DNA of 41,507 bases. It comes from Rhodanobacteraceae bacterium. GTDB taxonomy: Bacteria; Acidobacteriota; Terriglobia; Terriglobales; Acidobacteriaceae. This document shows positions 7,144-40,215 of this stretch, one piece after another; position 1 is the stretch's first letter; each line of letters opens with the position of its first letter. The translations under genes and the position numbers were made by a program. Below the pieces are notes generated by a model. That model made no database searches and had not been told where the DNA came from. It saw only the letters and a list, made by a program, of their open reading frames with translations. The DNA is taken from contig JANXWZ010000154.1 of NCBI GenBank assembly GCA_025350865.1, positions 1 through 41,507 on the forward strand. Direction: 5' to 3'.

Positions 7144-7737
7144 CTACATTGCGGGCTTTTTCGGCGCGGGCGGCGTGGCCGACGGCGGTAGCAACCCGAC
7201 GCCGCGCAGGTAACTGGCCATCTGCGAGTAGTGATCCATCAAATCGCCGGTGATCTCAATCATCGCCCTGGAGCGGGGCACCCTGGCTCCACGAAAGAAC
7301 GTGACGGTATCGCCCAGCTTGGCGTCGGTCAATGCGGCCATGATCGGGTCGCAATAGTCGAAGGAGGCCTTGAGGGCGGCCACCAGTTCGGCCTTCGAAG
7401 CCGTCTCCGCGACCTTCACCGTGTCGGGCGCTTTGCCATCGGAGAGAATCGCGCACAGACCGCCGTTCGATCCGGCGAGGTGCGAGACGATCCAGCCAAA
7501 AGACTTCTGGTCGGGTGTCGGGTGGAAGCTGTACTTATCGGATGGCATCTCCTCGGCCGAGTCCAGAATGTACTTTTCCTGGCGCGAGTAGATCTGGTTC
7601 GCGCTCCACATTACCGGGTTCCCGACGGAGGCGGCGGGTGGCGGACCAGCGGGCGGCGCGGTCTGGGCCTTCGTGGGAAGACCTGAACAAAGCAGCAGGC
7701 ATGCGGCTAGTGACGCGGTGGCAGTTGCAGTTTTCAT
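7144..7737 (-). CDS. Secreted DinB-like protein (197 aa)
   Basis: Four-helix DinB/YfiT-like fold preceded by an unusual export signal (residues 1-24, ending TKAQ). DinB-like metal ligands can be recognised as VSHLAG and MDHYSQMASYLRGVG, where His residues on two helices normally hold a divalent ion. The function of this secreted subgroup is unknown; cytoplasmic relatives include thiol-dependent transferases. The ATG at 7737 is chosen because GAGGAG sits 4 bases upstream and the signal peptide begins there; the longer frame to 7773 adds residues that do not belong to a signal. A proline-rich tail ends the protein. Confidence 0.8.
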   Translation of the reverse strand: MKTATATASLAACLLLCSGLPTKAQTAPPAGPPPAASVGNPVMWSANQIYSRQEKYILDSAEEMPSDKYSFHPTPDQKSFGWIVSHLAGSNGGLCAILSDGKAPDTVKVAETASKAELVAALKASFDYCDPIMAALTDAKLGDTVTFFRGARVPRSRAMIEITGDLMDHYSQMASYLRGVGLLPPSATPPAPKKPAM

Positions 7738-7973
7738 CGGACTCCTCGCAGACTCTTGCAGACGCATAATCACAGTTGTACTCTATCGCGCCGCCGACGC
7801 GTCTGTATCGCTGATTGACGCATCGAACCATAATCTTCTTCTGGCGGCATCGGTACATTTATCCGGTCTTGACTTTCCGCGCCAGCCGAACGACACTTCA
7901 GCCACGCTGTTTTCACGGGCCTGAGACTCTTGCCAGACCGGATCGCGTGCAGCCCACCTTGGAGAGGGCACAG

Positions 7974-8396
7974 TTGGCAGAAGGCACTACAAGTCGCGCG
8001 AGCCTCACGCTGGAGTCCACCATCGCCAGCGTCAACGTGGTGGAAGAGGCCGCGTTGGAGTACGCCCGCGCTGCCGGGTTTTCGCCCGATATCGCTTCGC
8101 ACCTGTCTATGGTGGCGGGTGAAGCCGCCGCCAACGCGGTGATCCATGGCAACAAACAGGACTCCGCCAAACGGATTACAGCTACCTTTGAAATTGCCGG
8201 ACCGGCCCTCAAGATCACGATCGCTGATCAGGGAGCTGGATTGGATCCGGACACCATTCCAGATCCTCTGGCTCCCGAGAATCTGCTTCGGTCGTCGGGC
8301 CGGGGGGTCTTCCTGATGCGTGCTTTCATGGACGAAGTCAATTTCAGGAAGCTGAATCCCGGAACAGAGATTACACTTGTCAAACGCCGCACCTAG
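7974..8396 (+). CDS. RsbW/SpoIIAB-like serine kinase anti-sigma factor (140 aa)
   Basis: GHKL-type ATPase of the anti-sigma-factor family. In partner-switching systems it binds and silences a sigma factor or other target, and phosphorylates its STAS antagonist. The N box (EAAANAVIHGN), G1 box (ADQGAGLDP) and G2 box (GRGVFLMRAFMDEV) are all present. I start at TTG 7974 (MAEGTTSRASLTLES) because GGAGAG lies 7 bases before it and the domain begins directly; the long frame from 7815 adds a tail unlike the family. The STAS partner follows 56 bases downstream. Confidence 0.85.
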   Translation: MAEGTTSRASLTLESTIASVNVVEEAALEYARAAGFSPDIASHLSMVAGEAAANAVIHGNKQDSAKRITATFEIAGPALKITIADQGAGLDPDTIPDPLAPENLLRSSGRGVFLMRAFMDEVNFRKLNPGTEITLVKRRT

Positions 8397-8451
8397 CTGC
8401 AATGCATTTCATCTAAAACAGATACCAACAATCGATGAGGAGAAACTCACC

Positions 8452-8799
8452 ATGAGCATGAAATACACAACACGTCAGGTCGATGGCGTCACGATTCTCG
8501 ATCTCAGCGGTCGCATCACCCTTGGCGACGGCAGCGTCACCCTGCGCGATGCCGTAAAGGACGTCCTGACCAAGGGTTCGAAGAGCATCCTGCTGAATCT
8601 TGAGAATGTCGACTACATCGACAGCTCTGGCCTCGGGGAACTTGTCAGCGCCTTTACGACGGTGAAAAACCAGGGCGGCGAACTGAAGCTGCTCCACCTG
8701 ACGACCAAGGTCCACGACCTGCTTCAGATCACCAAGCTATACACGGTGTTCGACATCAAAGACGACGAAGCCTCGGCTATCGGATCCTTCGCAGCGTAG
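8452..8799 (+). CDS. STAS-domain anti-sigma factor antagonist, RsbV/SpoIIAA-like (115 aa)
   Basis: Single STAS domain that, when unphosphorylated, captures the neighbouring anti-sigma kinase. The phosphorylation loop is clear: NVDYIDSSGLGELV, with the first Ser after Asp the usual target. The ATG at 8452 has GAGGAG 9-10 bases upstream; the longer frame overlapping the kinase gene is not needed. With the kinase at 7974 it forms a two-gene partner-switching module; neither a sigma factor nor a PP2C phosphatase is adjacent. A strong terminator follows. Confidence 0.92.
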   Translation: MSMKYTTRQVDGVTILDLSGRITLGDGSVTLRDAVKDVLTKGSKSILLNLENVDYIDSSGLGELVSAFTTVKNQGGELKLLHLTTKVHDLLQITKLYTVFDIKDDEASAIGSFAA

Positions 8800-9108: not shown

Positions 9109-12100
9109 ATGCCTCAGAACTGGAAACAGACGATCTCCGCTTATTTAGCGCTGGTATTCGCCGCTCTTCTGCTAGCGCCATCGGCTTTCTCTCAAACTTC
9201 GCGCGGCGCGATTACCGGTGTCGTGATGGACACCCAGGGCGCAGTTATTGCGAACGCGCCCGTCAAACTCACCAACCCTGCAACCGGAACTGTGCAGGAG
9301 AGCAAGTCCACCGGGGCAGGTGATTTCAACTTTCCGGAATTGGCGCCGGGCACGTATGAGGTCACCACCTCTATCGCCGGTTTCCAGACCGCTAAGATTG
9401 CCGGTATCGTCGTCGAAGTCTCGAAGGTGACGAACCTCAAAGTCGAGATGAAGATCGGCTCCGAAACCACGATCGTCGACGTTATGGCTGACGCTCTACA
9501 GACCGACACCACATCAAGCGCCCTGATTGCGGTTATCGATTCGAAGTCAGTGCAGGAAATGCCGATGAACGGCCGGGACTTCACCCGCATGACTCACTTC
9601 GCGGCTGGTGCCAGCGCCCTTACCAACTCTTTCAACGGCTCGCGCACCACAGCCATCAATTTCCAGATTGACGGTGCCGATAATGTTGACTCCTGGAACG
9701 GTATCGTCGCTTCCAACCAAGGTGGTGTCGCGGGCGTAGCGGGCGGACTCGTTCCAATCGAAGCCATTGACCAGTTCTCCATGCAGGCCGCAGGTGAAGC
9801 CGACCAGGGTCGCAACGCCGGTGCCAACCAGAACATGGTCCTCAAGACCGGCGGGAACGCCATCCACGGCGATGCGTTCTACTTTGACCGCAACGAGTAT
9901 TTTGCCGCCATCTCACCTGTCGCATTGCCGGGCAGCCACAAGGCCCTTATCCGTAACCACCAAGGTGGTTTCGTAGTCTCCGGACCGATTTGGAAAGACC
10001 ACACCTTCCTGATGCTGGCTGGAGAATTTCAGATCGCGAAGATCAACACCGCTCTCACCGACACGGTTTTGACGGATGCCTGGATCGCGGACGGCACGGC
10101 GTTGCTGAAGAAGTACGGCCTGACCCCGAACCAGCTCAGCCTCAATCTCTACAACAGCGCACTGTATCCTTCCGATTCGAAGGCGGGGCCGGCGGCGGTG
10201 AGCAACTACTTCGCGAACGGCACGGCAAATTACAACAGCTATAACGGCGTCATCAACCTCACGCATAACTTCAGCGCAAAGCAGCGCCTTTCGGCCCGCT
10301 ACCTTGGCACGACTGGCACCCAGGTTGCGCCTGTCGGAGTGGATTACGCGCAATACTTCCAGAAGGCTCCGATGCACGTGCACAACTTCTCCGTGGTGCA
10401 CAATTACACCATCAACAGCCACATGCTCAATCAGCTGACGCTGGGCGTGAACTACTTCCTACAGACGTTCAACGACGCAAACCAGAGCTTTAACCCGTCG
10501 CAGGCCAGCATTGGGCTGAACGTCGGATTGTCGACTGGCATTCTGGCCGCTGGTGCGCCCAGCATCGTCTTCACGGGCGGCGTCTTCGATCAGACTGGTG
10601 CGACACAGCCTTCGGGCCGCACCGACGTCACTGGCCACATTACCGATAGCTTCCATTGGTCGATCGGCCGCCATGAACTCAAGCTAGGCGGCGAGTTCCG
10701 CCATGCCAATGTGAACCAGCTTTATTTCACCAGCGTACGAGGAACATTTACGTTCGACGGAACGCGCGGCCCCTGGGCTGGCGGCACTGCGATCGATAAG
10801 GCGAACTGCGCCGGTCTGCCTGTACCGCAGGTCACCTCCAGCGGAGCCTGCAACACCAACATTCTGGCGCTGGCTGACTACCTGAACGGTCAAACCACGA
10901 ACTCCTCGGGCGCAAAGTTGTTGGTCGGCAACGCGCAGCGTGTCTGGACGCTCAACAGTGAGGATGCGTGGGTTCAGGACGACTTCCGCGCGAATAGGAG
11001 GCTCACCCTCAACCTCGGCATTCGGTATACCATTCCGGGTGCCATCCAAGCCGCCAAGAACGATGTTTACAGCTTCGTACCGGGCACCAATCCCGGCTTC
11101 CAGCTCGGACTCTATCCGAACTACTATGGAGCCGTCGCGCCACGCTTTGGCTTCTCGTACTCTCCGCTGGATAACAATCGCACCGTGTTGCGCGGTTCCT
11201 ACGGCATCTTCTACGACTTCCCGGCGATGCGTTACTGGACACAGGGGACCACTGCAAACGGAGGAGCCAATTACGCCCAGAATAACCCCGCCGGTCCGGA
11301 CGCGGCAGCAGTCTTCGTCGCTTCCAATGTAACCTGGCAGGTTGGAGTGAACCCCTTCACCGGAACAGCTGCACCGCAAGTCGGCGCGTACGGCGTCAAT
11401 CAGGACTTCAAGATGCCGTACGCCGAGGTCTTCAGCCTCAATATCGAGCAACAACTCACAAAGACTACTCTGTTTACCATCGGTTACGTCGGCAGCCTCG
11501 GCCGCCGCCTGCAGGTTCTCTACGATCTCAACCAGCCCGTTGCCAACGGGACGGCCACCCCCAGCGTCCGCCCTTACACCCAGACCTCGTTCCCAAATGA
11601 GAACGCCGCGTTCACCAAGCCTCTGCTAGGGATCAACCAGCTCAATTTCGAGGCTGCATCCGGCTACCACGGACTGCAGACGACGGTTCGTCAGGCTGCC
11701 TGGCGTGGACTTACGGCGAGCGCCAACTACACCTGGTCGAAGTCGATGGACGATGCCTCGACCCTGGACACGCCCTCGAACAGCTACAACCTCCATCAGG
11801 ATTACGGCCCGAGCACATTCGATAGCCGCCATGTCCTGACTGGGTCCGCCTTCTATGCGGTGCCTCAGCTTGGGCATTTCCTGCCGCGCGTGACCAAGGG
11901 CTTCCAGGTGAATGCCTTGTACACGTTCTCGACCGGCACACCCATCAACCCGCTCGTGAGCACCGATAACAGCAAGACGAATCAGCTAAAGGATCGTCCC
12001 AACTACAACCCGCTCGTCAGCCCTTACTCTGGCACGCAGACTATTCTCGGCACATCGGGCCGCCAGTACCAATGGCTTTCGAATGCCGCAGTCAATGGCG

Positions 12101-12411
12101 TTCAACCGTTCACCGTCGCGCCCGTCGGCACCTATGGCAATGAGCACCGCGATGCCTTCTACGGGCCTAACTTCAAGACGATTGACTTTTCCCTGATGAA
12201 ACGCACACCGATTACTGAGAAGGTGATGTCGGAGTTTCGCGCCGAGGTCTTCAACATCTTCAACTTCAACAATTTCGCCAATCCCAGCGTATCGAATATC
12301 AACAGCGGCACATTTGGTCGAATCACCAATACTCGGAACGGATCCTCCGCTCCTGGTATCGGATACGGCGAGCCCTTCAACGTCCAATTCGCGATGAAGT
12401 TCACCTTCTAA
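9109..12411 (+). CDS. Oar-like TonB-dependent receptor with carboxypeptidase-regulatory domain (1100 aa)
   Basis: Large outer-membrane protein. Signal peptide about residues 1-29 (LLLAPSAFSQ). A carboxypeptidase-regulatory-like beta-sandwich follows (about 34-113; RGAITGVVMDTQGAV, PGTYEVTTSIAGF). Next come a plug-like region with MNGRDFTRM and QIDGADNVDSWNG (about 150-205), and a long beta-barrel ending in Phe (VQFAMKFTF), the barrel-assembly signal. This architecture is the Oar-type family that is greatly expanded in Acidobacteriota; substrates are mostly unknown and polymeric nutrients are a guess. No SusD-like partner is present. It was followed in the same transcript by an M28 peptidase, now destroyed. 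Confidence 0.93.
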   Translation: MPQNWKQTISAYLALVFAALLLAPSAFSQTSRGAITGVVMDTQGAVIANAPVKLTNPATGTVQESKSTGAGDFNFPELAPGTYEVTTSIAGFQTAKIAGIVVEVSKVTNLKVEMKIGSETTIVDVMADALQTDTTSSALIAVIDSKSVQEMPMNGRDFTRMTHFAAGASALTNSFNGSRTTAINFQIDGADNVDSWNGIVASNQGGVAGVAGGLVPIEAIDQFSMQAAGEADQGRNAGANQNMVLKTGGNAIHGDAFYFDRNEYFAAISPVALPGSHKALIRNHQGGFVVSGPIWKDHTFLMLAGEFQIAKINTALTDTVLTDAWIADGTALLKKYGLTPNQLSLNLYNSALYPSDSKAGPAAVSNYFANGTANYNSYNGVINLTHNFSAKQRLSARYLGTTGTQVAPVGVDYAQYFQKAPMHVHNFSVVHNYTINSHMLNQLTLGVNYFLQTFNDANQSFNPSQASIGLNVGLSTGILAAGAPSIVFTGGVFDQTGATQPSGRTDVTGHITDSFHWSIGRHELKLGGEFRHANVNQLYFTSVRGTFTFDGTRGPWAGGTAIDKANCAGLPVPQVTSSGACNTNILALADYLNGQTTNSSGAKLLVGNAQRVWTLNSEDAWVQDDFRANRRLTLNLGIRYTIPGAIQAAKNDVYSFVPGTNPGFQLGLYPNYYGAVAPRFGFSYSPLDNNRTVLRGSYGIFYDFPAMRYWTQGTTANGGANYAQNNPAGPDAAAVFVASNVTWQVGVNPFTGTAAPQVGAYGVNQDFKMPYAEVFSLNIEQQLTKTTLFTIGYVGSLGRRLQVLYDLNQPVANGTATPSVRPYTQTSFPNENAAFTKPLLGINQLNFEAASGYHGLQTTVRQAAWRGLTASANYTWSKSMDDASTLDTPSNSYNLHQDYGPSTFDSRHVLTGSAFYAVPQLGHFLPRVTKGFQVNALYTFSTGTPINPLVSTDNSKTNQLKDRPNYNPLVSPYSGTQTILGTSGRQYQWLSNAAVNGVQPFTVAPVGTYGNEHRDAFYGPNFKTIDFSLMKRTPITEKVMSEFRAEVFNIFNFNNFANPSVSNINSGTFGRITNTRNGSSAPGIGYGEPFNVQFAMKFTF

Positions 12412-12437
12412 CGACCTTGCAGCCTAAGGGACCACTG

Positions 12438-12799
12438 ATGAAATCACGATCTTCTGTTTCGCTTCTACTGGCGGCCATCTCGGCCGCCAGTTTTGTTTCC
12501 GCCCGGAGTTACGCGCAGGCTCCGGAACCGGTTGACCTTACCGTGCTGCACCAGATCAAGACGCAGGCGTTTCACCACTCGCAGGTAATGGACACGCTGT
12601 TCCATATCTCCGATGTCTACGGCCCGCGCATCACCGATTCCCTCAACCACAAAGCCTCGGCGGAGTGTGGGGCGGTGAGGAGGAAGGCCTGCTGGGATCG
12701 AAATTCTATGTTCAGCAGCACTTCGCGCCTCGTGACACCATGAAGGTGACGCCGGAATATTCCAGGCTGGACGCCTACTACAACGACGACGGTGCCTGA
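12438..12799 (+). pseudogene. M28 peptidase remnant with internal deletion
   Basis: The first ~75 codons from ATG 12438 (AAGGGA 6 bases upstream) encode a signal peptide and the N-terminus of an M28 peptidase (FHHSQVMDTLFHISDVYGPRI, DSLNHKASAE). At about 12660-12668 the frame jumps into the catalytic core: GVWGGEEEGLLGSKFYVQQH and then SRLDAYYNDDGA before a stop at 12797-12799. Compared with the intact paralogue at 264-1988, about 300 residues with the first metal ligands are missing, and so is everything after the NDDG segment. The two halves are in different frames, so no functional enzyme can be made. Confidence 0.88.
12468..12498 (+). terminator. Terminator-like hairpin inside the pseudogene's signal-peptide codons
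   Basis: CTGGCGGCC (12468-12476) and GGCCGCCAG (12482-12490) form a perfect 9-bp stem with a 5-base loop, followed at once by TTTTGTTT. It has every feature of an intrinsic terminator for the receptor gene, although it lies within a former coding sequence. Confidence 0.6.
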
Positions 12800-12988: not shown

Positions 12989-13477
12989 TTACCGGGTGAG
13001 CGCTGCGATCATCTCGGCCCACTCCGGCCACAAACCCAGCAGTTCGGCGCGGTCAGCAGCCTCGTAGTCCTCGAACTCGAATCCTGGGCTTACGGTACAG
13101 CCTAGCAGCGCCCAGCTTCCGCCATGCCGCAATTTCGAACCCTGCCAGACTCCGTGTGGCACCACGACTTGCGGTCGCTCTCCGGCGGCAAGGTCATTGC
13201 CGATGACGATCCTATCCCCGGCATGACCCTCGTGCAATTGCAGCATCTCGACAGCGTCCCCGGCGTAGAAGTGGAAGACCTCGTCCGACTTGAGGCGGTG
13301 CATCTCGCTGAAGGTTCCGGGTTCCAGCAGGTAGTAGATGGCCGTCCCGGTGCGCCGCTCGCCGGGATATCGTGGGAGTTGAACTGTCTCGGCGGCCTCA
13401 TAGGTCCGCACGTAGAAGCCGCCTTCGCACGGGTGCGGAGCCAGGCTCAGCAGGGTTTTCACTTCGTCGGCTGTCAT
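12989..13477 (-). CDS. Cupin family protein, DUF985-type (162 aa)
   Basis: Small beta-barrel cupin of the DUF985 (Cupin_5) family. The start MTADEVKTLLSLAPHPCEGGFY, then RTGTAIYYLLEPGTFSEMHRLKSDEVFHFYAG and the end SPGFEFEDYE are diagnostic. Biochemical role unknown; some family members are annotated as sugar epimerase-like, without proof. The ATG at 13477 has GAGG 4 bases upstream; the extended frame to 13531 reads into the palindromic repeat (13495-13536). It lies downstream of the nfrA-nfrB::wecB unit on the same strand, separated by that repeat. Confidence 0.9.
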   Translation of the reverse strand: MTADEVKTLLSLAPHPCEGGFYVRTYEAAETVQLPRYPGERRTGTAIYYLLEPGTFSEMHRLKSDEVFHFYAGDAVEMLQLHEGHAGDRIVIGNDLAAGERPQVVVPHGVWQGSKLRHGGSWALLGCTVSPGFEFEDYEAADRAELLGLWPEWAEMIAALTR

Positions 13478-13494
13478 TGGACCTCGCGGTGAGA

Positions 13495-13536
13495 CCCACC
13501 TCAAACGAACAGACTGTTTGAGATGGGGCACCCGGT
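13495..13536 (-). repeat. Palindromic interspersed repeat, copy B (inverted relative to copy A)
   Basis: Its reverse complement begins ACCGGGTGCCCCATCTCAAAC and ends GTTTGAGGTGGG, nearly the same as copy A at 12844. It begins 2 bases after the nfrB::wecB stop codon and may act as its transcript end. Confidence 0.75.
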
Positions 13537-13537
13537 T

Positions 13538-16500
13538 TTAGGATACCGAATGCAACCGGTCGAACTCGGCGGCCTGGATTGGCATCCGGCCTGGGATTTC
13601 GTCGCGGTCGAGCGGTGCACCGAATTCGAGTACCGGCATCCCGGCGAAGAAGTCGGCGATGCGGATGCTGGCGAAGCCGTCGCCGTATGGATTGGCAGGC
13701 GTGCGCAAGATGCGGCGCTCGGCGATCTGCTCGGCCAGTTGTTCCAGTGCACCCTCGATCCGCTCGCGATCAGTTCCGACCAGCCATGCCACGCCGGCAC
13801 GCACGCCCTCGGGCCGTTCGGTCTTCTCGCGCATAATGAGCACCGGCTTGCCGAAGGATGGAGCCTCTTCCTGCAGGCCGCCGGAATCCGTCAGAACCAC
13901 ATCGCACTGGTCGAGGTAGCCGAGCAGATCGTTGTACTTGGCCGGGCCAGTGAGCAGCACGTCGCGATGATCGCCGAGCATGACGCGAGCGATCTCGCCC
14001 ACACGCGGGTTCGGGTGCAGCGGCCACAGGAAGACGTAGCGGCCTGGATTGTTGGTGACGAGATTCGAAATGGCACCGCAGATAGTGGCGATTCCCTCTT
14101 CAAGGTTCTCGCGGCGATGCGCCGTGACCAGCACACGCACGGGGCCTCGATGCGCGTTGCGCTGCCGGTCGGGCTCCAGGCCAATGCGCTCGCAGTTTGT
14201 GAGGAGCGCGTCAATCCCGGTGTTGCCGGTGACGATGATGTCTTCGGCGTGGACGCCCTCGCGCAGGAGATTGTTCTTGGCCCACTCGGTTGCCGCGAAG
14301 TGAATGTTGGCGAAGATGCCGACCACGCGCCGGTTGAACTCCTCGGGGAACGGCTGGGCGAGGTCCCGGGTACGGAGCCCGGCTTCCACGTGCGCCACGC
14401 GGACCCCGGCATAAAACGCTGCCAGACCCGCCATCGCGGTGGTTGCGGTATCGCCCTGGACGATGACCCAGTCCGGATGGTAGTCAGCGATCACCTGCGA
14501 GAAGCGCGTGAGAATGCGTGCTCCGACACCGGCGAGCGTCTGGTCGTGCGACATTACGTCGAGATTGGCATCGACCTCCACGCCAAAGGCCGCAAGCGCC
14601 TCTTCAACCATGTCGGTATGTTGCCCGGTCGCACAGACGAAGACATCTTCCGGGTCGCCGTGGGTGCCGATGCGGGCTCGCAGTTCCAATACCAGCGGGG
14701 CCAGCTTGATGGCCTCCGGGCGGGTACCGATTGCTACCAGGATACGCTTGGACGGGAAGGGCGTCTTCCACTTCGAGGCTACGTCATGCAACATGGAGAA
14801 TCTCCTTGCAGTGGTATCTGCCGCGCGTTGCGGCCTTGAAATTGGGATAACAGGTGCGGGGCCCTTGGCAATTGGCGGTGCGATCGGTGCAGGTGGGACG
14901 GGAATCGGCCGCGGCGGAACCAGAGCTGGACGTGCCGCCGGCTGGACGGAATAGGTTGGAGCCGACTCGGAAACAATGGTCTCCGCCTCCTGCTGCATGG
15001 CCGGAACCTGAAGCCACGCCGGAACACCAGCCTGAAGGGACGCGAGGTCGACCGCAACCATTGGCAGTGGCACCGATGCGAAGTCGGGCGGAATTTGTGC
15101 GGCGGCGGCAAAGACAGGCCTGGGAAGGGGTGGGATGTCCAGCTCGAACACCGGCATTGCCGCAGGAATAATCTCGTCGGCTTCTTCGACGTATGCCGGC
15201 TCGGCCAATGGAACCGCAATCTCCGGGGCGACGGCGATGACCTCGGCAGAGACCAACTCAAGCTGCGGTTTAACCCATTCGGGCTTAGCCTCCACCAGTT
15301 CGGCATCGGCTGCCTGCTGGGCGCGAACCTTGGAGCGAGCCTGCACCTGCAGCGTCTCCTGTAGCTGCTCGGCAGTAATGGCCGGCATGGACATCAGGAT
15401 CTCGCCCAGCTGCCGCCGTTTGTGGCCTTCCCAGCGCTGCGTCGCCAGCGCGTCGCTCAACTGTGCGGGGGAGATGAGTCGCCGTTCCAGCAGCAGGTCG
15501 CCCAGCGGACGATGGGTCCGCAATAGCTGCTCTACGTTCGGGAACTCATGCGCCGTCTTCAGCCACTTGAGCGGCTTGCCTGTGACGCGCGAATGAACGT
15601 AGCGGCGTATCGCATGGATGGTGCAGTAGAAGTCGATGACGTTGCCCCAGATCAGCCGGAAGGGCACCATCAACATCTGGCGACGTCGCGCAATCTCCTT
15701 GACGCAGGATGCACGCTGAAAGATTCGGTACGCCAACAGCGCCACATTGATGTCAATGAAGCCGGTGAGGGCACCGGGGAAATGAAAACGACCAAGGCCT
15801 GCGTTCCACGCGTGATGGTGGCCGAGCGCCCATAGAATCGACTCGACCACGCACATGACGATGAACAGCGTGACAGCGTTGAGCAGGCTGGTCAAGACGC
15901 CGATGCGGTCGCGCAGCAGCATGTAGCGTTCGCGCCACGTTGTGCCCCAGCCCAGCTTCTCCCAGCCCTGGAAGGTGATTCCGAGCATCCAGCGCTGCTT
16001 CTGGCGGACGGCGTCGCCGAAGATGGCGGGGAAGAACTCGCGGATGGCGACAAGCTCTTCGTAAGGATTCGACGGATTGTCCGTGTTCATCACCCAGACT
16101 TTGGCTAGGCCCGACTTGCGGCCGTTGCGAAACAGCCGGAAGGAAAAATCGTAGTCTTCCGTCAGCGAGACCGGCGGGAACAGGACATGGTTGGTCTGGG
16201 CGGCGAGTTCGTCGCAGGCTTCGCGTCCAAACGCCGTGCCGACGCCCGCCGACGGAACCATGCCGCCGACAGCCAGCCGCGCATCGAGATTCTTCAGGTG
16301 GACCTCGGCGAATTCGTCGAGGTATGTGCCGCCGGTTAGCTTGTGCAGCGGCCGCTCGTACGGGACGACCGGGACCTGGATGAGGTCGTACTCGGGCACG
16401 AAGCGGTTGAAGACCTTAAGGGTCAGCGGATGGACAACGTCCTCCGCGTCCTGCAGCGTGAAGATGGCGTACCGCTTGCCGGTCTCCTGCTCCTTCAGCT

Positions 16501-16912
16501 TGATGGCTTCGACGATCCAGTTGAGGCAGTCGGCCTTACTCGTGGGTCCGTCATTGGGGCACACGACGCGGTGGATGCGGGGGCGGTCGAAGGCGGCACG
16601 CGCCACTTCCATCTGGGTGGGCTCGTCGTTGGGGTAGGTGCCGACGAAGATGTCGTAGTTGTTGTAGTCGAGGCGGGTGCAGGTCGATTCCAGCATGGCG
16701 CCGATGACGGCGCACTCGTCCCACGCCGGGATCAGGATGGCGATCGGCTGCTCGGGCCGGTCGTAGAGTTCGCCTGCTTTGACTGTGGGGTTTTCGCGTC
16801 CCTGCGCCAGCCACTTACGCAGCGGCTTGCAGTAGAACACGAGGTCCATGAACAGGTCGTTCAGGCCACCAATCATGTACAGCAATGCGAGTAACCACTC
16901 GGTGAAGACCAT
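13538..16912 (-). CDS. NfrB-like membrane glycosyltransferase with MshEN c-di-GMP domain fused to UDP-GlcNAc 2-epimerase (1124 aa)
   Basis: Three functional parts in one chain. Residues ~5-27 are a membrane segment. Residues ~55-310 are a processive family-2 glycosyltransferase with DAED (155-158), TEDYD (251-255) and QKQRW (304-308). Further membrane segments follow at ~340-363, 379-397 and perhaps 413-434. Residues ~464-525 are an MshEN domain with two tandem motifs (PLGDLLLERRLISPAQL...ATQ and QLGEILMS...VQ), the c-di-GMP-binding fold found in NfrB. A Pro/Ala-rich linker (~526-718) leads to a complete non-hydrolysing UDP-GlcNAc 2-epimerase (722-1095): GTRPEAIKLAPL, QGDT (Asp821), HVEAGLRT (Glu843), PEEFNRR, TAHRRENLEEG (His932), TDSGGLQEEA. 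In E. coli, NfrB and WecB are separate proteins needed for the surface glycan used by phage N4. The gene starts 2 bases after nfrA. Confidence 0.93.
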   Translation of the reverse strand: MVFTEWLLALLYMIGGLNDLFMDLVFYCKPLRKWLAQGRENPTVKAGELYDRPEQPIAILIPAWDECAVIGAMLESTCTRLDYNNYDIFVGTYPNDEPTQMEVARAAFDRPRIHRVVCPNDGPTSKADCLNWIVEAIKLKEQETGKRYAIFTLQDAEDVVHPLTLKVFNRFVPEYDLIQVPVVPYERPLHKLTGGTYLDEFAEVHLKNLDARLAVGGMVPSAGVGTAFGREACDELAAQTNHVLFPPVSLTEDYDFSFRLFRNGRKSGLAKVWVMNTDNPSNPYEELVAIREFFPAIFGDAVRQKQRWMLGITFQGWEKLGWGTTWRERYMLLRDRIGVLTSLLNAVTLFIVMCVVESILWALGHHHAWNAGLGRFHFPGALTGFIDINVALLAYRIFQRASCVKEIARRRQMLMVPFRLIWGNVIDFYCTIHAIRRYVHSRVTGKPLKWLKTAHEFPNVEQLLRTHRPLGDLLLERRLISPAQLSDALATQRWEGHKRRQLGEILMSMPAITAEQLQETLQVQARSKVRAQQAADAELVEAKPEWVKPQLELVSAEVIAVAPEIAVPLAEPAYVEEADEIIPAAMPVFELDIPPLPRPVFAAAAQIPPDFASVPLPMVAVDLASLQAGVPAWLQVPAMQQEAETIVSESAPTYSVQPAARPALVPPRPIPVPPAPIAPPIAKGPAPVIPISRPQRAADTTARRFSMLHDVASKWKTPFPSKRILVAIGTRPEAIKLAPLVLELRARIGTHGDPEDVFVCATGQHTDMVEEALAAFGVEVDANLDVMSHDQTLAGVGARILTRFSQVIADYHPDWVIVQGDTATTAMAGLAAFYAGVRVAHVEAGLRTRDLAQPFPEEFNRRVVGIFANIHFAATEWAKNNLLREGVHAEDIIVTGNTGIDALLTNCERIGLEPDRQRNAHRGPVRVLVTAHRRENLEEGIATICGAISNLVTNNPGRYVFLWPLHPNPRVGEIARVMLGDHRDVLLTGPAKYNDLLGYLDQCDVVLTDSGGLQEEAPSFGKPVLIMREKTERPEGVRAGVAWLVGTDRERIEGALEQLAEQIAERRILRTPANPYGDGFASIRIADFFAGMPVLEFGAPLDRDEIPGRMPIQAAEFDRLHSVS
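14792..14807 (-). promoter_or_regulatory. Internal ribosome-binding site and ATG for a free WecB domain
   Basis: On the minus strand AAGGAG (14807-14802) is followed by 7 bases and ATG (14794-14792), which is Met707 of the fusion. Starting here gives a 418-residue protein whose first beta strand (RILVAIGTRPEA) begins about 15 residues in, as in stand-alone WecB. Confidence 0.55.
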
Positions 16913-16914
16913 GC

Positions 16915-18174
16915 TCAGTGCGCCCCCGATCCGAGGGAGATGTTCTTCTGGAACAGGAGCCGAAAGCGAAAATCGCCGTAGCCCGAGCCGTAGGGATTGG
17001 CGCTGGAGTTGGCAAATGGAAGATAGAAGCCGCGCACGTATTCGGCACGCAGCGAGAAGCCCTGCCAGTTGGTATTCGATACCTCGAAGCCGGGGATCAG
17101 CTCGAAGATGTTGTTATAGAACTGCTGGTTGGTGTCGAGCGCTACGCTCTCTTGCAGGAATGGACGCAGCCGCAGCGAACCATCGTGCGTCAGGTCGACC
17201 ATCTCACGCGGCTGCAGGTAGGCAATGCCGTCGTGCTTGTACCGGGAGTAGAACCCAAACGAGCCGTTGGCCTCAAACGAGAAGCGATCGCCGATCGCGC
17301 TATCTCGTCCGGAGCGCCACAGCTTGTAATACCCCGCGACCACCCGCGTGTCTGGAACGACCGCTGCGGTGCCCTTTGTCGAGCCGTAGAACAGATATGC
17401 CGCGTTGGCTTCCGCGCTGAGGAAGAGCGGCGAATCGTGCATCTGGAAGGCGACTCCGACGCCGCTGAGCAGCGCGTTGTCGGAGAAGATCTGGGGCAGG
17501 TTGCCGCCGTTTGACTTGGTGTCCCGAAGCAGACGCTCACCGACATAGACCCGGAAGGGGGAGGTACTGCCCAGCCGCTCATAGTATCGGACCGAACTGT
17601 CGACGACGCCGTCTCTGAATCTGTTCAGGTATTGCGCGTCCACTCCAACGACAAGAACGTGGCGGGGGAATTCCCCGTCGAGCACATGGATCGCCTTCAT
17701 GGCCTGCATCCGGATTGCCGGGTCGACGTCAGGATAGCTGCTAGCGATGGCGCGGCCGAACGCAAGCCGGGCATCGTCGTAGCGCTTCTGGTTGGCGTAG
17801 ATGTAGCCTTGCTGCGCCTCGAATTGCGGTGTGCTCTGGCCTAACTGGCGCAGCGCATCGATGTCTTCAGCAGCGCCCTTCTCATCTTTTGCATTCAGGT
17901 CAAGATAGACCTCTTGCTTCAGGGCCGTCACGTCATGCGGATTCGCACGGATGGCGCAGCGCATGAGGTGGCGTGCGTCTTCCTGGCGACCGGTGGTAAT
18001 CGCGTCGAAGGCTAGTTTGCGGATAGGGTAGGTGCGATCTTCGACGGTGCCATTCGCTTCCGGGCAGGGCGCGGCAAACGTCGCGGGTGCCTGCGCGGAG
18101 GCCAGGGCCGGGAGCAGAGCTGCTATCACCACCAGCTGTCGAATTAGGGGCCCGAGACACAATTTGGATCGCAT
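16915..18174 (-). CDS. NfrA-like outer-membrane protein with TPR region (419 aa)
   Basis: Outer-membrane partner of NfrB. Signal peptide about residues 1-27 (ALASAQ). Residues ~45-160 are helical TPR-like repeats (ALKQEVYLDLNAKDEKGAAEDIDAL, RYDDARLAFGRAI). Residues ~170-419 form a C-terminal barrel with the NfrA-type ending YGDFRFRLLFQKNI. E. coli NfrA is more than twice as long, so this is a compact version with fewer repeats. In the known pathway NfrA is proposed to pass the NfrB-made glycan across the outer membrane. No Shine-Dalgarno is seen before ATG 18174, so the start is less sure. The gene leads the operon, with nfrB::wecB 2 bases downstream. Confidence 0.85.
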   Translation of the reverse strand: MRSKLCLGPLIRQLVVIAALLPALASAQAPATFAAPCPEANGTVEDRTYPIRKLAFDAITTGRQEDARHLMRCAIRANPHDVTALKQEVYLDLNAKDEKGAAEDIDALRQLGQSTPQFEAQQGYIYANQKRYDDARLAFGRAIASSYPDVDPAIRMQAMKAIHVLDGEFPRHVLVVGVDAQYLNRFRDGVVDSSVRYYERLGSTSPFRVYVGERLLRDTKSNGGNLPQIFSDNALLSGVGVAFQMHDSPLFLSAEANAAYLFYGSTKGTAAVVPDTRVVAGYYKLWRSGRDSAIGDRFSFEANGSFGFYSRYKHDGIAYLQPREMVDLTHDGSLRLRPFLQESVALDTNQQFYNNIFELIPGFEVSNTNWQGFSLRAEYVRGFYLPFANSSANPYGSGYGDFRFRLLFQKNISLGSGAH

Positions 18175-24230: not shown

Positions 24231-27200
24231 TTAGAACAGAAACTTGGCGCTGAGTTGCAGCTGCCGCGACGATCCGCCGTCGCTGATGGCAAAGCGTGTC
24301 GCTGAAATCTGACCGAAGGTTCCCGAATCGACGTTGCCGGATGGCTGGCCGAAGTTCGGGTGGTTCATGATGTCGAACGCGTCAAGCCGGAGCTTGAAGA
24401 CGAGCGACTCGAACAGCTTCGTGTCTTTCTCCAGCGAGAGATCGACGTCGGCAAAGCCCGGACCGGTGACCTGATTGCGCCGCAGGTTGCCAAATCCGGT
24501 GAATGTCGTGACTCCGCCGACGCTGGTCGCCTGCTTTTGGAGAGTGCAACCATTGGTCGATACCGCCAGCGTCGTTCCCACGGGGCAAACCGTGGACTGG
24601 ATGAACGACACGTTGGTCAGGCCCGGTTGCACAATCTTCTGCGTTATGACCGAACCATTGATCACGCTGGGACGGATGACGCCTGCAACGCCGGTGTAGG
24701 TCGAGTTGTTCTCGGTAATGTTGACCGGGTTGCCGGTCTGGTACTGAATGATCGTGGAGAATTGGAAGCCAGACACCAGGCGGTTTTGCTTGAAGGGCAG
24801 CGCGTAGATCGCCGTGCCCGCATAGTGATTGCGGGTATCGAAATCCGACGGCCCCCAGTTGAGTGCGGTATTGGTGCTGTCTTCAAAGGTGTAGCCGCCC
24901 TGCGAACCGAGCGAGTTCGTGTCCATGGACTTCGACCAGTTGTAATTCATGTTGAACTGGAGCCCGTGGCCCATGTTCTTGGTCACCACCGCCCATAGCG
25001 CGTTGTACATCGAGTGACCGCGGCTATCTGCTTCCGCGATGTTCGTCAGAGTTGCAGCACCCGGCAGGATGGGGCTGGAGAGGGACAGCGACGTCACCGG
25101 CCGGTTTGCGAGGTTGCCGCCGATCGGCTGATTCTGGTTAGTGCGTTCGCGCAGATGCTGCCCCACCGAGCCGTAATAACCAAGCGAAAACACCATGGCG
25201 CCCGGGAGTGCCTGCTGGAAGTTGAGGTTATAGGTCTCTGTATAAGCGTTGCTGAACTTCGGATTCACGCTTGAGATTGCGATTCCAGCTGCCTTGGCTG
25301 ACGCATAAAGCGACGATACCGGGATGGCCGCGCCGCTGTACGAAACCGAGGTGCTGAACGGTGCGTTGGTCGTCAAACCGCTGACTGCGGTCTGGACGGG
25401 CTGATCAACCAGGTATCCGTAGCCACCGCGCAGGACAGTCTTGCCGGAGCCCAGAAGATCCCACGCGAAGCCGAGCCGCGGCTCGAAGTTATAGTTCTGG
25501 TTGTAGACGGAGCCGAGGCCGGGGGTTCCCGTCCGCACCAGGGAATTGCTTGCCGCAATAAAGTTGACGAAGCGATTCGCGCCTTCGGTCGGGGTGCCGT
25601 TCCACTCGAAGCGCATCCCGTACTCTACGGTCAACCGCGGGGTCAGCTTCAGGTTGTCCTGCGCGAAGAGTGCGCCAGCATTAATGTAGACGCGGCTGGT
25701 GATTGTGGTGGGCTGAATGCTGAAGCCGGTCGCCATATCCTGTTCGAAGTTATTCGCCGTGCTGGCATAGGTGATGGTGCCGGTGTCTCCTGCGAAGCTG
25801 GCGTCGAGGAAACGGCGGAACTCGCCGCCGAACTTGATGCTGTGTTTCCGGTGCAGCCAGGTTGCCGTATCCGACACAACTCCCAGGGTGTCATTGCGTC
25901 CCTGCGGGAATCCCGACGGTCCGCCAAGGACGAGACCCAGGTCTGAGAACGTCATTTGCGGAAGACCGATCGCCGTAGTGACGCCGTCACCGATATTGAA
26001 GGTTGCCGGGTTCAACAGAGTGTTGGGATTGAATGCAATCGAAATGCGGTTGAACCCGAGCCGCGCCTCGTTGACGAGGTTCGGAGTGAAGATATGCGTT
26101 TCGTTGAACGTCAGCACCTGCCGGTGCGCGTTGCGGTGATCGCCGAAGCCCGGAATCGTGTCTCCCTGCAGGGCTGGCTCGGTGCGAACGTCAGACTGGA
26201 AGGCGTAGAAGGCGTGCAGCGAATCGCTGGTGCTGAACTGATGCAGAACGTCGCCGGTGGTCTGGTTGATTTGAACCGGACCAGAAGTGAAGGAGACATA
26301 ATTGTTGCCGCTGTTAGCCAGAGGAATGATCGCCAGCAAAGCGTTGGCTGCTGGCTTGCCCGCGGCCACGGTGGCTGCACGCTGCGCTGCGCTCAGTACC
26401 GTGCTGTTCTGCAGAATGCCCTGGTGCTGGCGCAGGCCTTCATAACTGGCAAAAAAGAAGGTGTGATTTTTCCAGATCGGACCGCCCACGGCGACGCCGA
26501 AGTTATTGCGCTTCAGCGGAGCCTTATTGCCCGCGACGCCGAGCGAAGCACCGGTTGTGGCGTTGATTGGACGATTGAAGAAGTTGCGGGCGTCGAGCGC
26601 CTCGTTGCGGAAATAGTCGAACACCTCGCCGTGGATTCGGTTCGAACCCGACCGCGTGCTCACGTTGACGATTGAACCGGAGCTGCGGCCATATTCTGCC
26701 GAGAAGGTCGAGTTGTTGATCTTGAACTCGCTGGTGGTATTGACCGAGGGCTGGAACGTGATCTGGTTCTGGCTCATGTCGTTCAGATTGATGCCATTGA
26801 TCTGGAAGTTGACCGAGTCTTCGCGATTGCCTGCGGTGATGAAGGAATTTGCGCCCAGGCCGCGGCTGGCTCCGGTGAGTGAACCAGCGGTCGGCGCTAC
26901 CACGCCGCCCGGAGTGAGCACCGTCAAGTCCAGGAAATGTCGGCCATTCAGCGGCAGTTCCTGCACGGTGTTCTTGTCAATGACCTGGCCCACCGTCATG
27001 GTCTGGGTCTCGATCTGCAAATTCGAGCCCTGAACCTCCACGGTCTCACCCGCCGACGATACGGCGAGCTTCATGTTGGCCGTCACATGCTGGTCCACGT
27101 CGAGCGTCAGCAGTGGCACGGTGTATGCGCTGAAACCGGTGGCGGTCGCCTGAACCTTGTAGTCGCCAGGCTGAAGCGACGGAGCAGCATACAGCCCGGC

Positions 27201-27386
27201 CGCATCGGTCGTCAGGATGCGGTCGTTTCCTGTCGCGAGGGAATGGATCACCACCTGGGCGTTGGGAACCACGGCGCCGGTGGGATCAGTAACAACGCCC
27301 GTGAGGGTTGCCGTCGACTGGGCCAGAGACAAACCGGTGGAGAGTGCGACCATCACGATAAGGGGGAGCAAAGAGCGTAGCTTCAT
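24231..27386 (-). CDS. Oar-like TonB-dependent receptor with carboxypeptidase-regulatory domain (1051 aa)
   Basis: Second large outer-membrane receptor of the same type as the one at 9109. Signal peptide about residues 1-22 (STGLSLAQST). A carboxypeptidase-regulatory domain follows (TLTGVVTDPTGAVVPNAQVVI; PGDYKVQATATGF), then a plug-like region with LPLNGRHFLDLTVL and QINGINLNDMSQNQ, and a barrel ending in Phe (QLQLSAKFLF). ATG 27386 is chosen because GGAGG lies 6 bases upstream, giving a proper signal peptide; the frame can be extended 18 bases further. Substrate unknown. mnmE follows directly. Confidence 0.93.
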   Translation of the reverse strand: MKLRSLLPLIVMVALSTGLSLAQSTATLTGVVTDPTGAVVPNAQVVIHSLATGNDRILTTDAAGLYAAPSLQPGDYKVQATATGFSAYTVPLLTLDVDQHVTANMKLAVSSAGETVEVQGSNLQIETQTMTVGQVIDKNTVQELPLNGRHFLDLTVLTPGGVVAPTAGSLTGASRGLGANSFITAGNREDSVNFQINGINLNDMSQNQITFQPSVNTTSEFKINNSTFSAEYGRSSGSIVNVSTRSGSNRIHGEVFDYFRNEALDARNFFNRPINATTGASLGVAGNKAPLKRNNFGVAVGGPIWKNHTFFFASYEGLRQHQGILQNSTVLSAAQRAATVAAGKPAANALLAIIPLANSGNNYVSFTSGPVQINQTTGDVLHQFSTSDSLHAFYAFQSDVRTEPALQGDTIPGFGDHRNAHRQVLTFNETHIFTPNLVNEARLGFNRISIAFNPNTLLNPATFNIGDGVTTAIGLPQMTFSDLGLVLGGPSGFPQGRNDTLGVVSDTATWLHRKHSIKFGGEFRRFLDASFAGDTGTITYASTANNFEQDMATGFSIQPTTITSRVYINAGALFAQDNLKLTPRLTVEYGMRFEWNGTPTEGANRFVNFIAASNSLVRTGTPGLGSVYNQNYNFEPRLGFAWDLLGSGKTVLRGGYGYLVDQPVQTAVSGLTTNAPFSTSVSYSGAAIPVSSLYASAKAAGIAISSVNPKFSNAYTETYNLNFQQALPGAMVFSLGYYGSVGQHLRERTNQNQPIGGNLANRPVTSLSLSSPILPGAATLTNIAEADSRGHSMYNALWAVVTKNMGHGLQFNMNYNWSKSMDTNSLGSQGGYTFEDSTNTALNWGPSDFDTRNHYAGTAIYALPFKQNRLVSGFQFSTIIQYQTGNPVNITENNSTYTGVAGVIRPSVINGSVITQKIVQPGLTNVSFIQSTVCPVGTTLAVSTNGCTLQKQATSVGGVTTFTGFGNLRRNQVTGPGFADVDLSLEKDTKLFESLVFKLRLDAFDIMNHPNFGQPSGNVDSGTFGQISATRFAISDGGSSRQLQLSAKFLF

Positions 27387-27490
27387 GGGATTCCTCCAGA
27401 ACAAACAGTTCCGAGTCGCCTACGAGAGGTAGGGGCTGATCAACGGACACCGTTGGCTACTGACAAGCAGACAAATAGTGGTTTCCCCTC

Positions 27491-37946: not shown

Positions 37947-37975
37947 TTGGTAATTGTTACCAAACAAAATATGCT
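37947..37975 (+). promoter_or_regulatory. thrS promoter with a palindrome
   Basis: TTGGTA (37947-37952), 17 bases, TATGCT (37970-37975), followed by ATG at 37999. The -35 box is part of the perfect palindrome TTGGTAA-TTG-TTACCAA (37947-37963), which could be an operator. Upstream, CGGGTACCCG (37900-37909) is another palindrome. Confidence 0.4.
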
Positions 37976-37998
37976 GTAGCTCAGGGATAAAAGAACGT

Positions 37999-40056
37999 AT
38001 GAGCTTAGCTGAAGTACAAGCCACCATCCGCGTACAGCTGCCGGATGGTTCGATTCGCGAAGTTTCTCAGGGTACGACGCCGCTGGACATCGCGACCTCC
38101 ATCTCACCGCGCCTCGCTGCAGTGGTGGTTATTGCGAAGATTAAGCCGATCGCTGGCCTCGACATCAATCAGTCGGAAGGCGGCGCAGATGACGCGCCAG
38201 ATTCGGCCGAGACGATGTATGGCGCGGGCGATCCGCAGGCCGAGAAGCTGGTTGATCTGACCACACCGCTTACTGAAGATGTCGAGTTGTGGCTGCTGAA
38301 AGAGCAGGATGAGGCCGCGCTGAAAGTGGTGCGCCACTCGGCCGCGCACGTGATGGCGACTGCGATTCTGGAGCTCTTTCCCGAGACCAAGCTCGGTCAC
38401 GGCCCGGCCACCGATCAGGGCTTCTTCTACGACGTCTATCGTGACACGCCATTTACTGAAGGCGACCTTGCCTCCATCGAGGCGCGCATGGCCGAGGTGG
38501 TCGCTCGCGATGAGAAGTTCGTCCGCGAGGTCGAGCCCCGCGAACAGGGCATCGCCGACTACGAGCAGCAGGGTGAGTTCATGAAGGTTCACTTCATTGA
38601 AAAGTTCACGCAGCCTGGCGATCAGATCTCGCTCTACCGCAACGGCAAGTTTGTCGACTTCTGCCGCGGACCGCACGTTCCCTCCACCGGCCGGGTCAAA
38701 GCCTTCAAGGTCATGTCGATTGCCGGCGCGTACTGGCTGGGCGATGAGAAGAACCAGCAGCTCCAGCGCATCTACGGCACAGCCTTCTTTACCGACAAGG
38801 AACTGAAGACTCACTTCGCGCGGCTGGAAGAAATCAAAGCTCGCGACCATCGCGTGCTGGGCAAGCAGCTCGACCTTTTCTCCATCCAGGAGGTCGCGGG
38901 TGCAGGTCTGATCTTCTGGCATCCGAAGGGCGGTTTGATCCGCAAGGTCATGGAAGATTGGATGCGCGATGAATGTATCCGGCGCGGTTACGAGTTGGTG
39001 TATACCCCGCACATCATGCGGCGTGAGCTGTGGAAGATCAGCGGCCACGAGATGAATTACAGCGACAATATGTACCCGCCGATGGAGCTTGACGATGCCG
39101 AGTACCGGCTGAAGCCCATGAACTGCCCCGGGCACATTCTCATCTACAAGAACTCGCCGAAGAGCTATCGCGACCTGCCGGTTCGCTACGCTGAGTTGGG
39201 GAACGTTTATCGCTACGAGCGCAGCGGAACTATGCACGGCCTGCTGCGTGTCCGCGGCTTTACGCAGGATGATGCCCATATCTTCTGCACGCCGGACCAG
39301 ATCGAGAGCGAAATTGAAGCGTGCGTGGATTTTGCTGACGCCGTGCTCAAAACTTTTGGGTTCGCGGAATTCAAGGTCGAGCTATCGACTTGGGATCCGA
39401 GCGACAAGGCCTTCATCGGCAGTGCCGACCGTTGGGAAGGTGCCGAGGGCGCGCTGAAGAATGTCCTCGACCGCAAGGGAATTCCGTTCCGCCGCATCCC
39501 GGGTGAAGCCGCGTTCTACGGGCCAAAGATCGACATCAAACTGGTCGACGTGCTTGGCCGGCTGTGGCAGCTCTCTACCGTGCAGTTCGACTGGAATCTG
39601 CCGGAGCGCTTCGATCTCGCTTACAAGGGCGAGGACGGTGAGCTGCATCAACCCGTGATGGTTCACCGTGCGCTCTTCGGTTCAGTGGAACGCTTCTTTG
39701 GTGTGCTGATCGAACACTATGCTGGTGCCTTCCCGTTTTGGCTTGCGCCAGTCCAGGTGGGGCTGGTTCCCATCTCGGAGAAGCATCTGGACTACGCAGC
39801 TAAGGTGAAGAAGCGGCTTGAGGCGGCGGGGATTCGCGTTGAACTCGATCAGCGCAACGAGAAGATGAATGCCAAGATCCGCGAGTTCGGGCTCGCCAAG
39901 GTGCCTTTCATCCTGATCCTCGGCGACAAGGAAGAAGCCACGGATGCGGTCAGTGTCCGGACGCGGGGTAAGGGCGACGAAGGCAGCGTGACGGTCGATG
40001 CGTTCGTGGAACGCGCGACGAAGTTAGTTGGATCGAAGGGTGTCGAGCTAAGCTAA
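37999..40056 (+). CDS. thrS: Threonine-tRNA ligase ThrS (685 aa)
   Basis: Charges tRNA-Thr. All parts are present in the normal order. The TGS domain (IRVQLPDGSIREVSQG) comes first, then the editing domain with HSAAHVMATAI and later GPHVPSTG. The class II catalytic core follows, with MNCPGHILIYK (zinc Cys), RYERSGTMHGLLRVRGFTQDD (motif 2) and PVMVHRALFGSVERFFGVLIEHY (motif 3), and the anticodon-binding domain (VGLVPISEKHLDYAAKV). ATG 37999 is used; the frame can be extended 45 bases but that part overlaps the promoter. A short acidic insert (SEGGADDAPDSAETMYGAGD) lengthens the TGS region. Confidence 0.97.
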   Translation: MSLAEVQATIRVQLPDGSIREVSQGTTPLDIATSISPRLAAVVVIAKIKPIAGLDINQSEGGADDAPDSAETMYGAGDPQAEKLVDLTTPLTEDVELWLLKEQDEAALKVVRHSAAHVMATAILELFPETKLGHGPATDQGFFYDVYRDTPFTEGDLASIEARMAEVVARDEKFVREVEPREQGIADYEQQGEFMKVHFIEKFTQPGDQISLYRNGKFVDFCRGPHVPSTGRVKAFKVMSIAGAYWLGDEKNQQLQRIYGTAFFTDKELKTHFARLEEIKARDHRVLGKQLDLFSIQEVAGAGLIFWHPKGGLIRKVMEDWMRDECIRRGYELVYTPHIMRRELWKISGHEMNYSDNMYPPMELDDAEYRLKPMNCPGHILIYKNSPKSYRDLPVRYAELGNVYRYERSGTMHGLLRVRGFTQDDAHIFCTPDQIESEIEACVDFADAVLKTFGFAEFKVELSTWDPSDKAFIGSADRWEGAEGALKNVLDRKGIPFRRIPGEAAFYGPKIDIKLVDVLGRLWQLSTVQFDWNLPERFDLAYKGEDGELHQPVMVHRALFGSVERFFGVLIEHYAGAFPFWLAPVQVGLVPISEKHLDYAAKVKKRLEAAGIRVELDQRNEKMNAKIREFGLAKVPFILILGDKEEATDAVSVRTRGKGDEGSVTVDAFVERATKLVGSKGVELS

Positions 40057-40078: not shown

Positions 40079-40203
40079 TTGTGTATGGTCTGCCAGCGGC
40101 TAGAAAGTTTGCATATGGTCCGCCATACACAACATCACTTTGTGTGTGGTCGGCCATACACAAACTTATTTGTGTATGGTTTCATGCTATAAACCATACA
40201 CAA
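40079..40203 (+). repeat. Four operator-like palindromes at 30-31 bp intervals upstream of the Fic gene
   Basis: Units begin at 40079, 40109, 40140 and 40170. The full unit is TTGTGTATGG, a TCNG spacer, and CCATACACAA. Unit 1 keeps only the left arm, unit 2 has 2 mismatches on the left, and unit 3 has one mismatch. Unit 4 has a longer spacer and a perfect 13-bp stem (TTGTGTATGGTTT / AAACCATACACAA) ending 12 bases before the ATG. Its spacer and right arm hold TGCTATAAA, a possible extended -10 box. Confidence 0.85.
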
Positions 40204-40215
40204 GAGGTTTATGCC

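Follow-up and report, generated by a model that had tools for sequence, protein, structure and literature searches.

The closest described relative of the locus analysed here is the N4 glycan receptor (NGR) system of Escherichia coli, which comprises NfrB, NfrA and WecB (NfrC). According to the available parts of the two papers on this system (PMC8669469, PMC8669472), the NfrB-dependent receptor glycan of phage N4 requires the UDP-N-acetylglucosamine (UDP-GlcNAc) 2-epimerase WecB, but not WecC or other enzymes of the enterobacterial common antigen (ECA), and it is the C-terminal part of NfrB that binds cyclic di-GMP (c-di-GMP), with a Kd of about 1 µM (PMC8669469). What NfrB makes in E. coli was proposed there from genetics, and the same papers give the rule that organisms with NfrB and no WecB in another pathway always have wecB beside nfrB. 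Here we report a 41,507-nucleotide contig (JANXWZ010000154.1, assembly GCA_025350865.1; hereafter the window) of a member of the Acidobacteriaceae, in which a single open reading frame (ORF) encodes, in this order, an NfrB-type glycosyltransferase (GT), a two-motif MshEN domain, a disordered Ala/Pro linker and a non-hydrolysing UDP-GlcNAc 2-epimerase (WecB). The fusion is a new domain architecture within a known pathway, and not a new kind of system. Together with the product of the preceding gene, it is probably a synthase of the inner membrane, gated by c-di-GMP, that produces its own UDP-N-acetylmannosamine (UDP-ManNAc) and uses this partner to export a polymer containing ManNAc; we infer its substrate and product, how it responds to c-di-GMP, its topology and export route, and any benefit of tethering.

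An initial annotation of the window had proposed the three-part fusion as a single ORF, and this is borne out by the open frame and by Pfam and NCBIfam matches to its parts (Table 1). The same architecture is present in Granulicella rosea DSM 18704 (locus L083, genome G158), with which the window genome was placed in one genus, and in an uncultured Granulicella metagenome-assembled genome (MAG; locus L084, genome G776). The frames of these two relatives are open as well, which speaks strongly against a missed stop; they span 1,125 and 1,127 codons, respectively, from stop to stop, and 1,114 and 1,117 residues from the first TTG. In an AlphaFold2 model built with 38 sequences, 670 of the 1,124 residues of the window protein have a predicted local distance difference test score (pLDDT) of at least 90, and the modelled fusion is two well-folded halves joined by a long disordered tether.

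The N-terminal half has the combination by which NfrB is recognized, namely processive GT2 motifs with an MshEN domain C-terminal to them. Pfam model PF13641 (GT2) matches residues 56–310, and the three motifs named in the initial annotation (DAED, TEDYD and QKQRW) are found at D155/E157, D253–D255 and Q304..W308, similar to the DxD, TED and QxxRW motifs of the E. coli enzyme, in which an MshEN domain likewise follows (PMC8669469, PMC8669472, as far as available). The fusion scores 419.7 bits against NF011305 (cut-off, 409). It scores 459.4 bits against the NfrB equivalog model NF008411, below the cut-off of 1,170, and we therefore file it as an NfrB-type relative rather than an equivalog of the E. 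coli protein. All ten residues mutated in the available parts of the E. coli papers (D169, D267, W330, L490, G491, L505, L509, L518, G519 and L537) are kept in all three fusions, with D155, D253 and W308 of the window protein aligning with D169, D267 and W330, and G471 corresponding to G491. A phmmer search of the Protein Data Bank (PDB) with residues 1–460 returned no chain at E ≤ 1, and the 50 best Foldseek matches of the whole model are epimerase-type chains (the fiftieth is titled CapG), uninformative for the GT part. The model and hydropathy delineate long helices at residues 2–27, 326–364, 380–407 and 416–444. With helix 2–27 first and helices 326–364 and 380–407 following the GT domain, the GT, MshEN and WecB parts should all face the cytoplasm in this model; two putative membrane helices lie between the domains of E. 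coli NfrB (PMC8669469, as far as available).

The C-terminal half is an epimerase of the non-hydrolysing WecB type, in line with the intact enzyme that had been proposed. Epimerase_2 (PF02350) matches residues 756–1088 (E = 8.6e-99), and TIGR00236 (wecB) gives 378.5 bits against a cut-off of 210.15, whereas the model for the hydrolysing NeuC enzymes, TIGR03568, gives 69.3 bits (cut-off, 235.9), so that the protein is not NeuC-like. The 20 best Foldseek matches of the fusion model are all UDP-GlcNAc 2-epimerases. A comparison at 18 positions of E. coli WecB shows identity across the three fusions at 13 (R10, K15, D95, E117, E131, R135, T211, H213, S290, G291, G292, E296 and R313), and we take these to include the catalytic residues; the five others are D44, K205, G212, Q271 and F276, some of which are misnumbered, E. 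coli WecB itself having a different letter there from the one intended. In a quick tree, from which 10 duplicate loci and rows below 90 bits or 300 aligned residues were left out, the fused WecBs fall in a 45-row group with E. coli WecB, apart from eight other Epimerase_2 proteins. In each of the three carrier assemblies, the fused WecB is the sole PF02350 match at E ≤ 0.001, which rules out, at this threshold, a second epimerase elsewhere in the carriers and supports UDP-ManNAc as the likely donor.

The MshEN domain carries the case for regulation. Its score against NF053729, the model for an MshE-related c-di-GMP motif, exceeds the cut-off of 38 bits, and it matches the MshE structure 5htl (Table 1). 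Seven of the ten E. coli residues above lie in the MshEN domain, and GGDEF domains are matched 8, 21 and 8 times in the three carrier genomes. The three fusions share a common partner as well: the stop codon of the upstream ORF is separated from the ATG of the fusion by 2 bases in the window, and a homologue of this 419-residue protein precedes the fusion in both relatives, overlapping the TTG start by 4 bases.

On this basis, we propose the following mechanism. The GT part would be embedded in the inner membrane, its active site facing the cytoplasm, and the WecB part, tethered flexibly by about 170 residues, would convert UDP-GlcNAc to UDP-ManNAc; since the assembly yielded no other UDP-GlcNAc 2-epimerase, the synthase would be the place where UDP-ManNAc is made. 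The GT would polymerise ManNAc, alone or with GlcNAc, and push the chain through the membrane, the partner, with its tetratricopeptide repeat (TPR)-like helices and strands, would carry the chain across the outer membrane, and c-di-GMP binding to MshEN would switch the GT on. It is possible, though doubtful, that the protein goes further and acts as a self-feeding synthase: as WecB enzymes form dimers, the fused WecB would pair two synthases and hold the cellular UDP-ManNAc at the membrane, and c-di-GMP would set both donor production and polymerisation within one complex, yielding a poly-ManNAc-type surface glycan of these Granulicella.

Several observations weigh against the proposed mechanism, and they concern the donor, the c-di-GMP switch, the membrane topology and the exporter. 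Regarding the donor, WecG-family proteins, which are possible other users of UDP-ManNAc, are matched in all three carrier genomes (twice in the window genome, once and three times in the others). In addition, 3 of 46 chosen Acidobacteriota genomes with an unfused NfrB (G085, G160 and G171; 97–99% complete) have no WecB match, indicating that UDP-ManNAc need not be the donor for all relatives of NfrB. These two findings would suit a fused WecB that supplies UDP-ManNAc to the cell at large, for example to enzymes of the WecG family, and whose attachment to the synthase is incidental, the NfrB part perhaps using UDP-GlcNAc or a mixture. We regard this as unlikely. A WecB above the TIGR00236 cut-off occurs in the other 43 of these 46 genomes and in only 1 of 31 NfrB-less congeners, chosen from 60, so that other pathways of the genus seldom need WecB, although relatedness confounds the comparison (one family supplies most of the 46, and all 31 negatives are congeners) and the 46 are a chosen subset of NfrB carriers, some matched over the GT part only. 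Furthermore, a separate wecB often lies near nfrB, and the E. coli genetics in the available parts of PMC8669469 and PMC8669472 ties WecB to NfrB. The genomes G085, G160 and G171 either break the published rule on NfrB and WecB or have assembly gaps. Their NfrB-type synthases are candidates for the use of another donor sugar.

Regarding the switch, the conserved MshEN residues are weak evidence, because most single substitutions in the E. coli domain left N4 infection unaffected; G491L blocked the phage fully and G519S partly (PMC8669472, as far as available). The two half-motifs are 13 residues apart in the three fusions, as compared with 10 in 18 of 19 unfused NfrBs and 9 in the remaining one; the distance in E. 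coli NfrB is 9. The MshEN domain of the window protein is only 49–51% identical to those of the other two fusions, as compared with 73–74% for the GT part, making it the least conserved folded part in this lineage, with a ratio of nonsynonymous to synonymous substitutions (dN/dS) of about 0.30–0.58. Moreover, the C-terminal region of E. coli NfrB that the Pfam MshEN model matches (residues 542–628) is absent from the fusion. A synthase that uses its own epimerase and is unresponsive to c-di-GMP, with MshEN as a structural remnant, would account for the 3-residue insertion and the divergence in the window lineage. However, this seems improbable given that the mutated residues are kept in all three proteins, that the other two fusions share 80% identity in this domain, with a dN/dS of about 0.14, and that the NF053729 score is above the cut-off. 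For the c-di-GMP control put forward in the initial annotation, the retained motif residues and the GGDEF matches speak in favour and the insertion between the half-motifs against, and c-di-GMP gating of the fusion synthase is plausible from the sequence.

Regarding the topology, helix 416–444 is only moderately hydrophobic and makes the predicted topology tentative. The exporter is also weakly modelled: in the partner model, helices at residues 49–168 are confident, strands at 172–408 have low confidence, and the mean pLDDT is 62.4. TPR matches in the partner are below the Pfam cut-offs. Its best Foldseek match is E. coli BcsC, with a poor TM-score (0.25–0.33), and most other matches cover the TPR part only; the structure at rank 42, 4y25, is a polysaccharide outer-membrane secretin that we take to be PgaA. 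BLASTP against E. coli NfrA gave no meaningful match (best E = 1.6), and NfrA_C (PF13283), which scores 227.6 bits in E. coli NfrA itself, was not matched in the partner at E ≤ 1. By contrast with the 990-residue E. coli protein, the partner has 419 residues and precedes the synthase gene, whereas the E. coli order is nfrB–nfrA. A profile of the three partners found its 30 best rows outside the fusion loci in open frames abutting nfrB, mostly of Burkholderiaceae, through the N-terminal TPR part (best E = 4.5e-5 among 8,735 frames). The partner may therefore be named nfrA by position and architecture only, without a meaningful sequence match, and the earlier assignment of an nfrA gene 2 bases before the fusion holds for the spacing. 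We take it to be a putative short exporter comparable to NfrA, BcsC and PgaA. A phage-receptor role, which had also been predicted, finds no support here, the partner not being recognizably an E. coli-type NfrA and no search having been aimed at phages.

The linker is the most divergent part of the fusion. Over 177 residues (531–707), it comprises 20% Ala and 19% Pro; pLDDT is below 50 at residues 547–718, and identity among the three fusions is 16–28%, as compared with 73–86% in the GT half and 57–67% in the WecB half. The codon-position pattern is also weaker here, with a GC content at third positions (GC3) of 0.63, below that at first positions (GC1, 0.74); GC3 is 0.78–0.84 in the other parts. 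Among the fusions, dN/dS is about 0.08–0.18 for the GT part and 0.21–0.27 for WecB (dS 1.1–1.5, near saturation), and dN is below dS in every part and pair, the linker included. Although the source assembly is a draft of 246 contigs and the GC3 of the linker is low, an artefact of sequencing or assembly, or accidental read-through from one gene into the next, is hardly credible, because independent full-length copies are open in two further genomes, one of them a cultured strain, and dN is below dS throughout.

The three fusions are monophyletic in quick trees of both the NfrB part and the WecB part (Shimodaira–Hasegawa-like approximate likelihood-ratio test support of 100 in each), the NfrB tree having been built after a further 16 of 110 rows were left out, with some duplicates remaining. 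This shared grouping in both trees suggests that the fusion and its partner are a cassette of two genes that arose once. The WecB tree gives the fused clade no supported sister group, and an origin by fusion of two neighbouring genes is possible. Within the genus, 2 of 62 genomes have an NfrB match, both fused, and 60 have none; the third carrier, the uncultured Granulicella MAG, came from a scan of a species-genome collection with six peptide patterns, to which relatives without those patterns are invisible. Judged by open-frame length, there was no further fusion among the GT-covering NfrB matches from the class (399 genomes sampled), the phylum (396) and Pseudomonadota (398), samples that overlap in part, include the window genome and G158, and were scored for at most a few candidates per genome. 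The longest non-fusion frames in these samples have 768, 870 and 794 codons, respectively, and a 929-codon frame at locus L139 has no WecB match.

Separate nfrB and wecB neighbours, for which a search had been suggested alongside that for fusions, are common. In 57 NfrB loci, two of them fused, wecB lies on the same strand at less than 500 bases in 10 and at 500–3,000 bases in 18, on the opposite strand at 500–3,000 bases in 2, and farther away in 9, and is absent from the stretch in 16; it is thus within 3 kb in 30 loci (28 on the same strand and 2 on the other), as measured between open frames and with some stretches ending at contig ends. In the 19 class and phylum loci (L064–L082), the corresponding counts are 1 at less than 500 bases, 4 on the same strand and 1 on the other at 500–3,000 bases, 1 farther and 12 without wecB. 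An epimerase was found anywhere in the genome in 12 of 14 genomes (15 loci, 13 of which were picked for having no nearby wecB), and in neither of the MAGs G796 and G797.

With the E. coli NGR system, as described in the available parts of PMC8669469 and PMC8669472, the fusion locus shares an adjacent partner gene, whose product has TPR-like helices and a putative barrel, and a presumed dependence on a UDP-GlcNAc 2-epimerase. It differs in that E. coli WecB is encoded by a separate gene of the ECA operon, and in that E. coli NfrB extends about 200 residues further past the two-motif domain. Operons in which wecB adjoins nfrB, as in Trinickia, Ralstonia and Holophagaceae loci and in Pseudomonas soli (PMC8669469, as far as available), tie WecB to the synthase by neighbourhood and encode two proteins with no tether. 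The earlier statement that this pathway also operates in Acidobacteriota is right as to the genes and too strong as a claim about the product. The predicted arrangement of a c-di-GMP-controlled inner-membrane synthase with a TPR/barrel outer-membrane exporter also resembles BcsA/BcsC and PgaC/PgaA. To our knowledge, the BcsA and PgaC synthase chains contain no donor-making enzyme. BcsA uses PilZ, not MshEN (PMC8669472, as far as available).

In the open-licence literature, we found no paper linking NfrB with Acidobacter, although a report elsewhere is possible, and none pairing a UDP-GlcNAc 2-epimerase with MshEN. The available text of PMC8669472, supplements aside, lacks the words 'fusion', 'fused' and 'Acidobacter'; that of PMC8669469, supplements aside, lacks 'fused' and 'Acidobacter' and has 'fusion' 12 times, with only reporter or tag constructs in the nine places shown. 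A natural synthase–epimerase fusion in an assembly without another epimerase match provides independent evidence for UDP-ManNAc as the donor, and its occurrence in two relatives supports a hitherto indirect idea of what NfrB synthases polymerise. As a single polypeptide predicted to unite donor supply, polymerisation and c-di-GMP gating, it offers a joint test case, and G. rosea DSM 18704, among the carriers, is a named strain from a culture collection.

Table 1 Features of the 41,507-nucleotide window, with the basis of each assignment.
Feature	Positions	Strand	Basis or remark
nfrB::wecB fusion ORF	13538–16912	−	1,124 residues, no internal stop; L083 and L084 have full-length homologous frames
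NfrB-type processive GT part, residues 1–460	15533–16912	−	PF13641/PF13632, NF011305, residue matches, model, hydropathy
Two-motif MshEN domain, residues 469–524	15341–15508	−	NF053729, 48.5 bits; PDB 5htl, E = 3.4e-4
Ala/Pro-rich linker, residues ~542–718, predicted disordered	14759–15289	−	Composition, pLDDT, low identity
Non-hydrolysing UDP-GlcNAc 2-epimerase (WecB) part, residues ~720–1090	13643–14755	−	TIGR00236, residues, Foldseek, sole PF02350 match
Putative NfrA-like export protein, 419 residues	16915–18174	−	Signal-like first helix, TPR-like helices, 12 predicted β-strands
Cupin_5 (DUF985) gene	12989–13531	−	Starts 6 bases past the fusion stop
Two large OMP_b-brl_4/CarboxypepD_reg outer-membrane proteins	9109–12411; 24231–27404	+; −	
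Fic/DOC family protein	40081–41346	+	Beside a threonyl-tRNA synthetase-type gene (37954–40056)

The neighbourhoods of the three fusions differ, and beyond the two-gene pair they share only low-identity matches to two large barrel ORFs and one DinB-like ORF. The Cupin_5 gene has no match in the stretches around the other two fusions and is therefore not part of the unit. Between the large barrel gene and the Cupin_5 gene lies an apparent remnant of an M28-type peptidase gene (12417–12743 to about 12810, plus strand). Its 108-residue frame shares 28% identity over 97 residues with the intact M28 protein at 264–2009 (E = 8e-6, against a small database), and a further piece, in a different frame, was recognized only by eye. 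Near the G. rosea fusion (L083), genes at 7484–8506 and 14896–16857 encode a 6-phosphogluconate dehydrogenase-type protein and a GH16/CBM6 protein, respectively, and an MRJP-family protein is encoded at 15057–16421 near the fusion of the MAG (L084).

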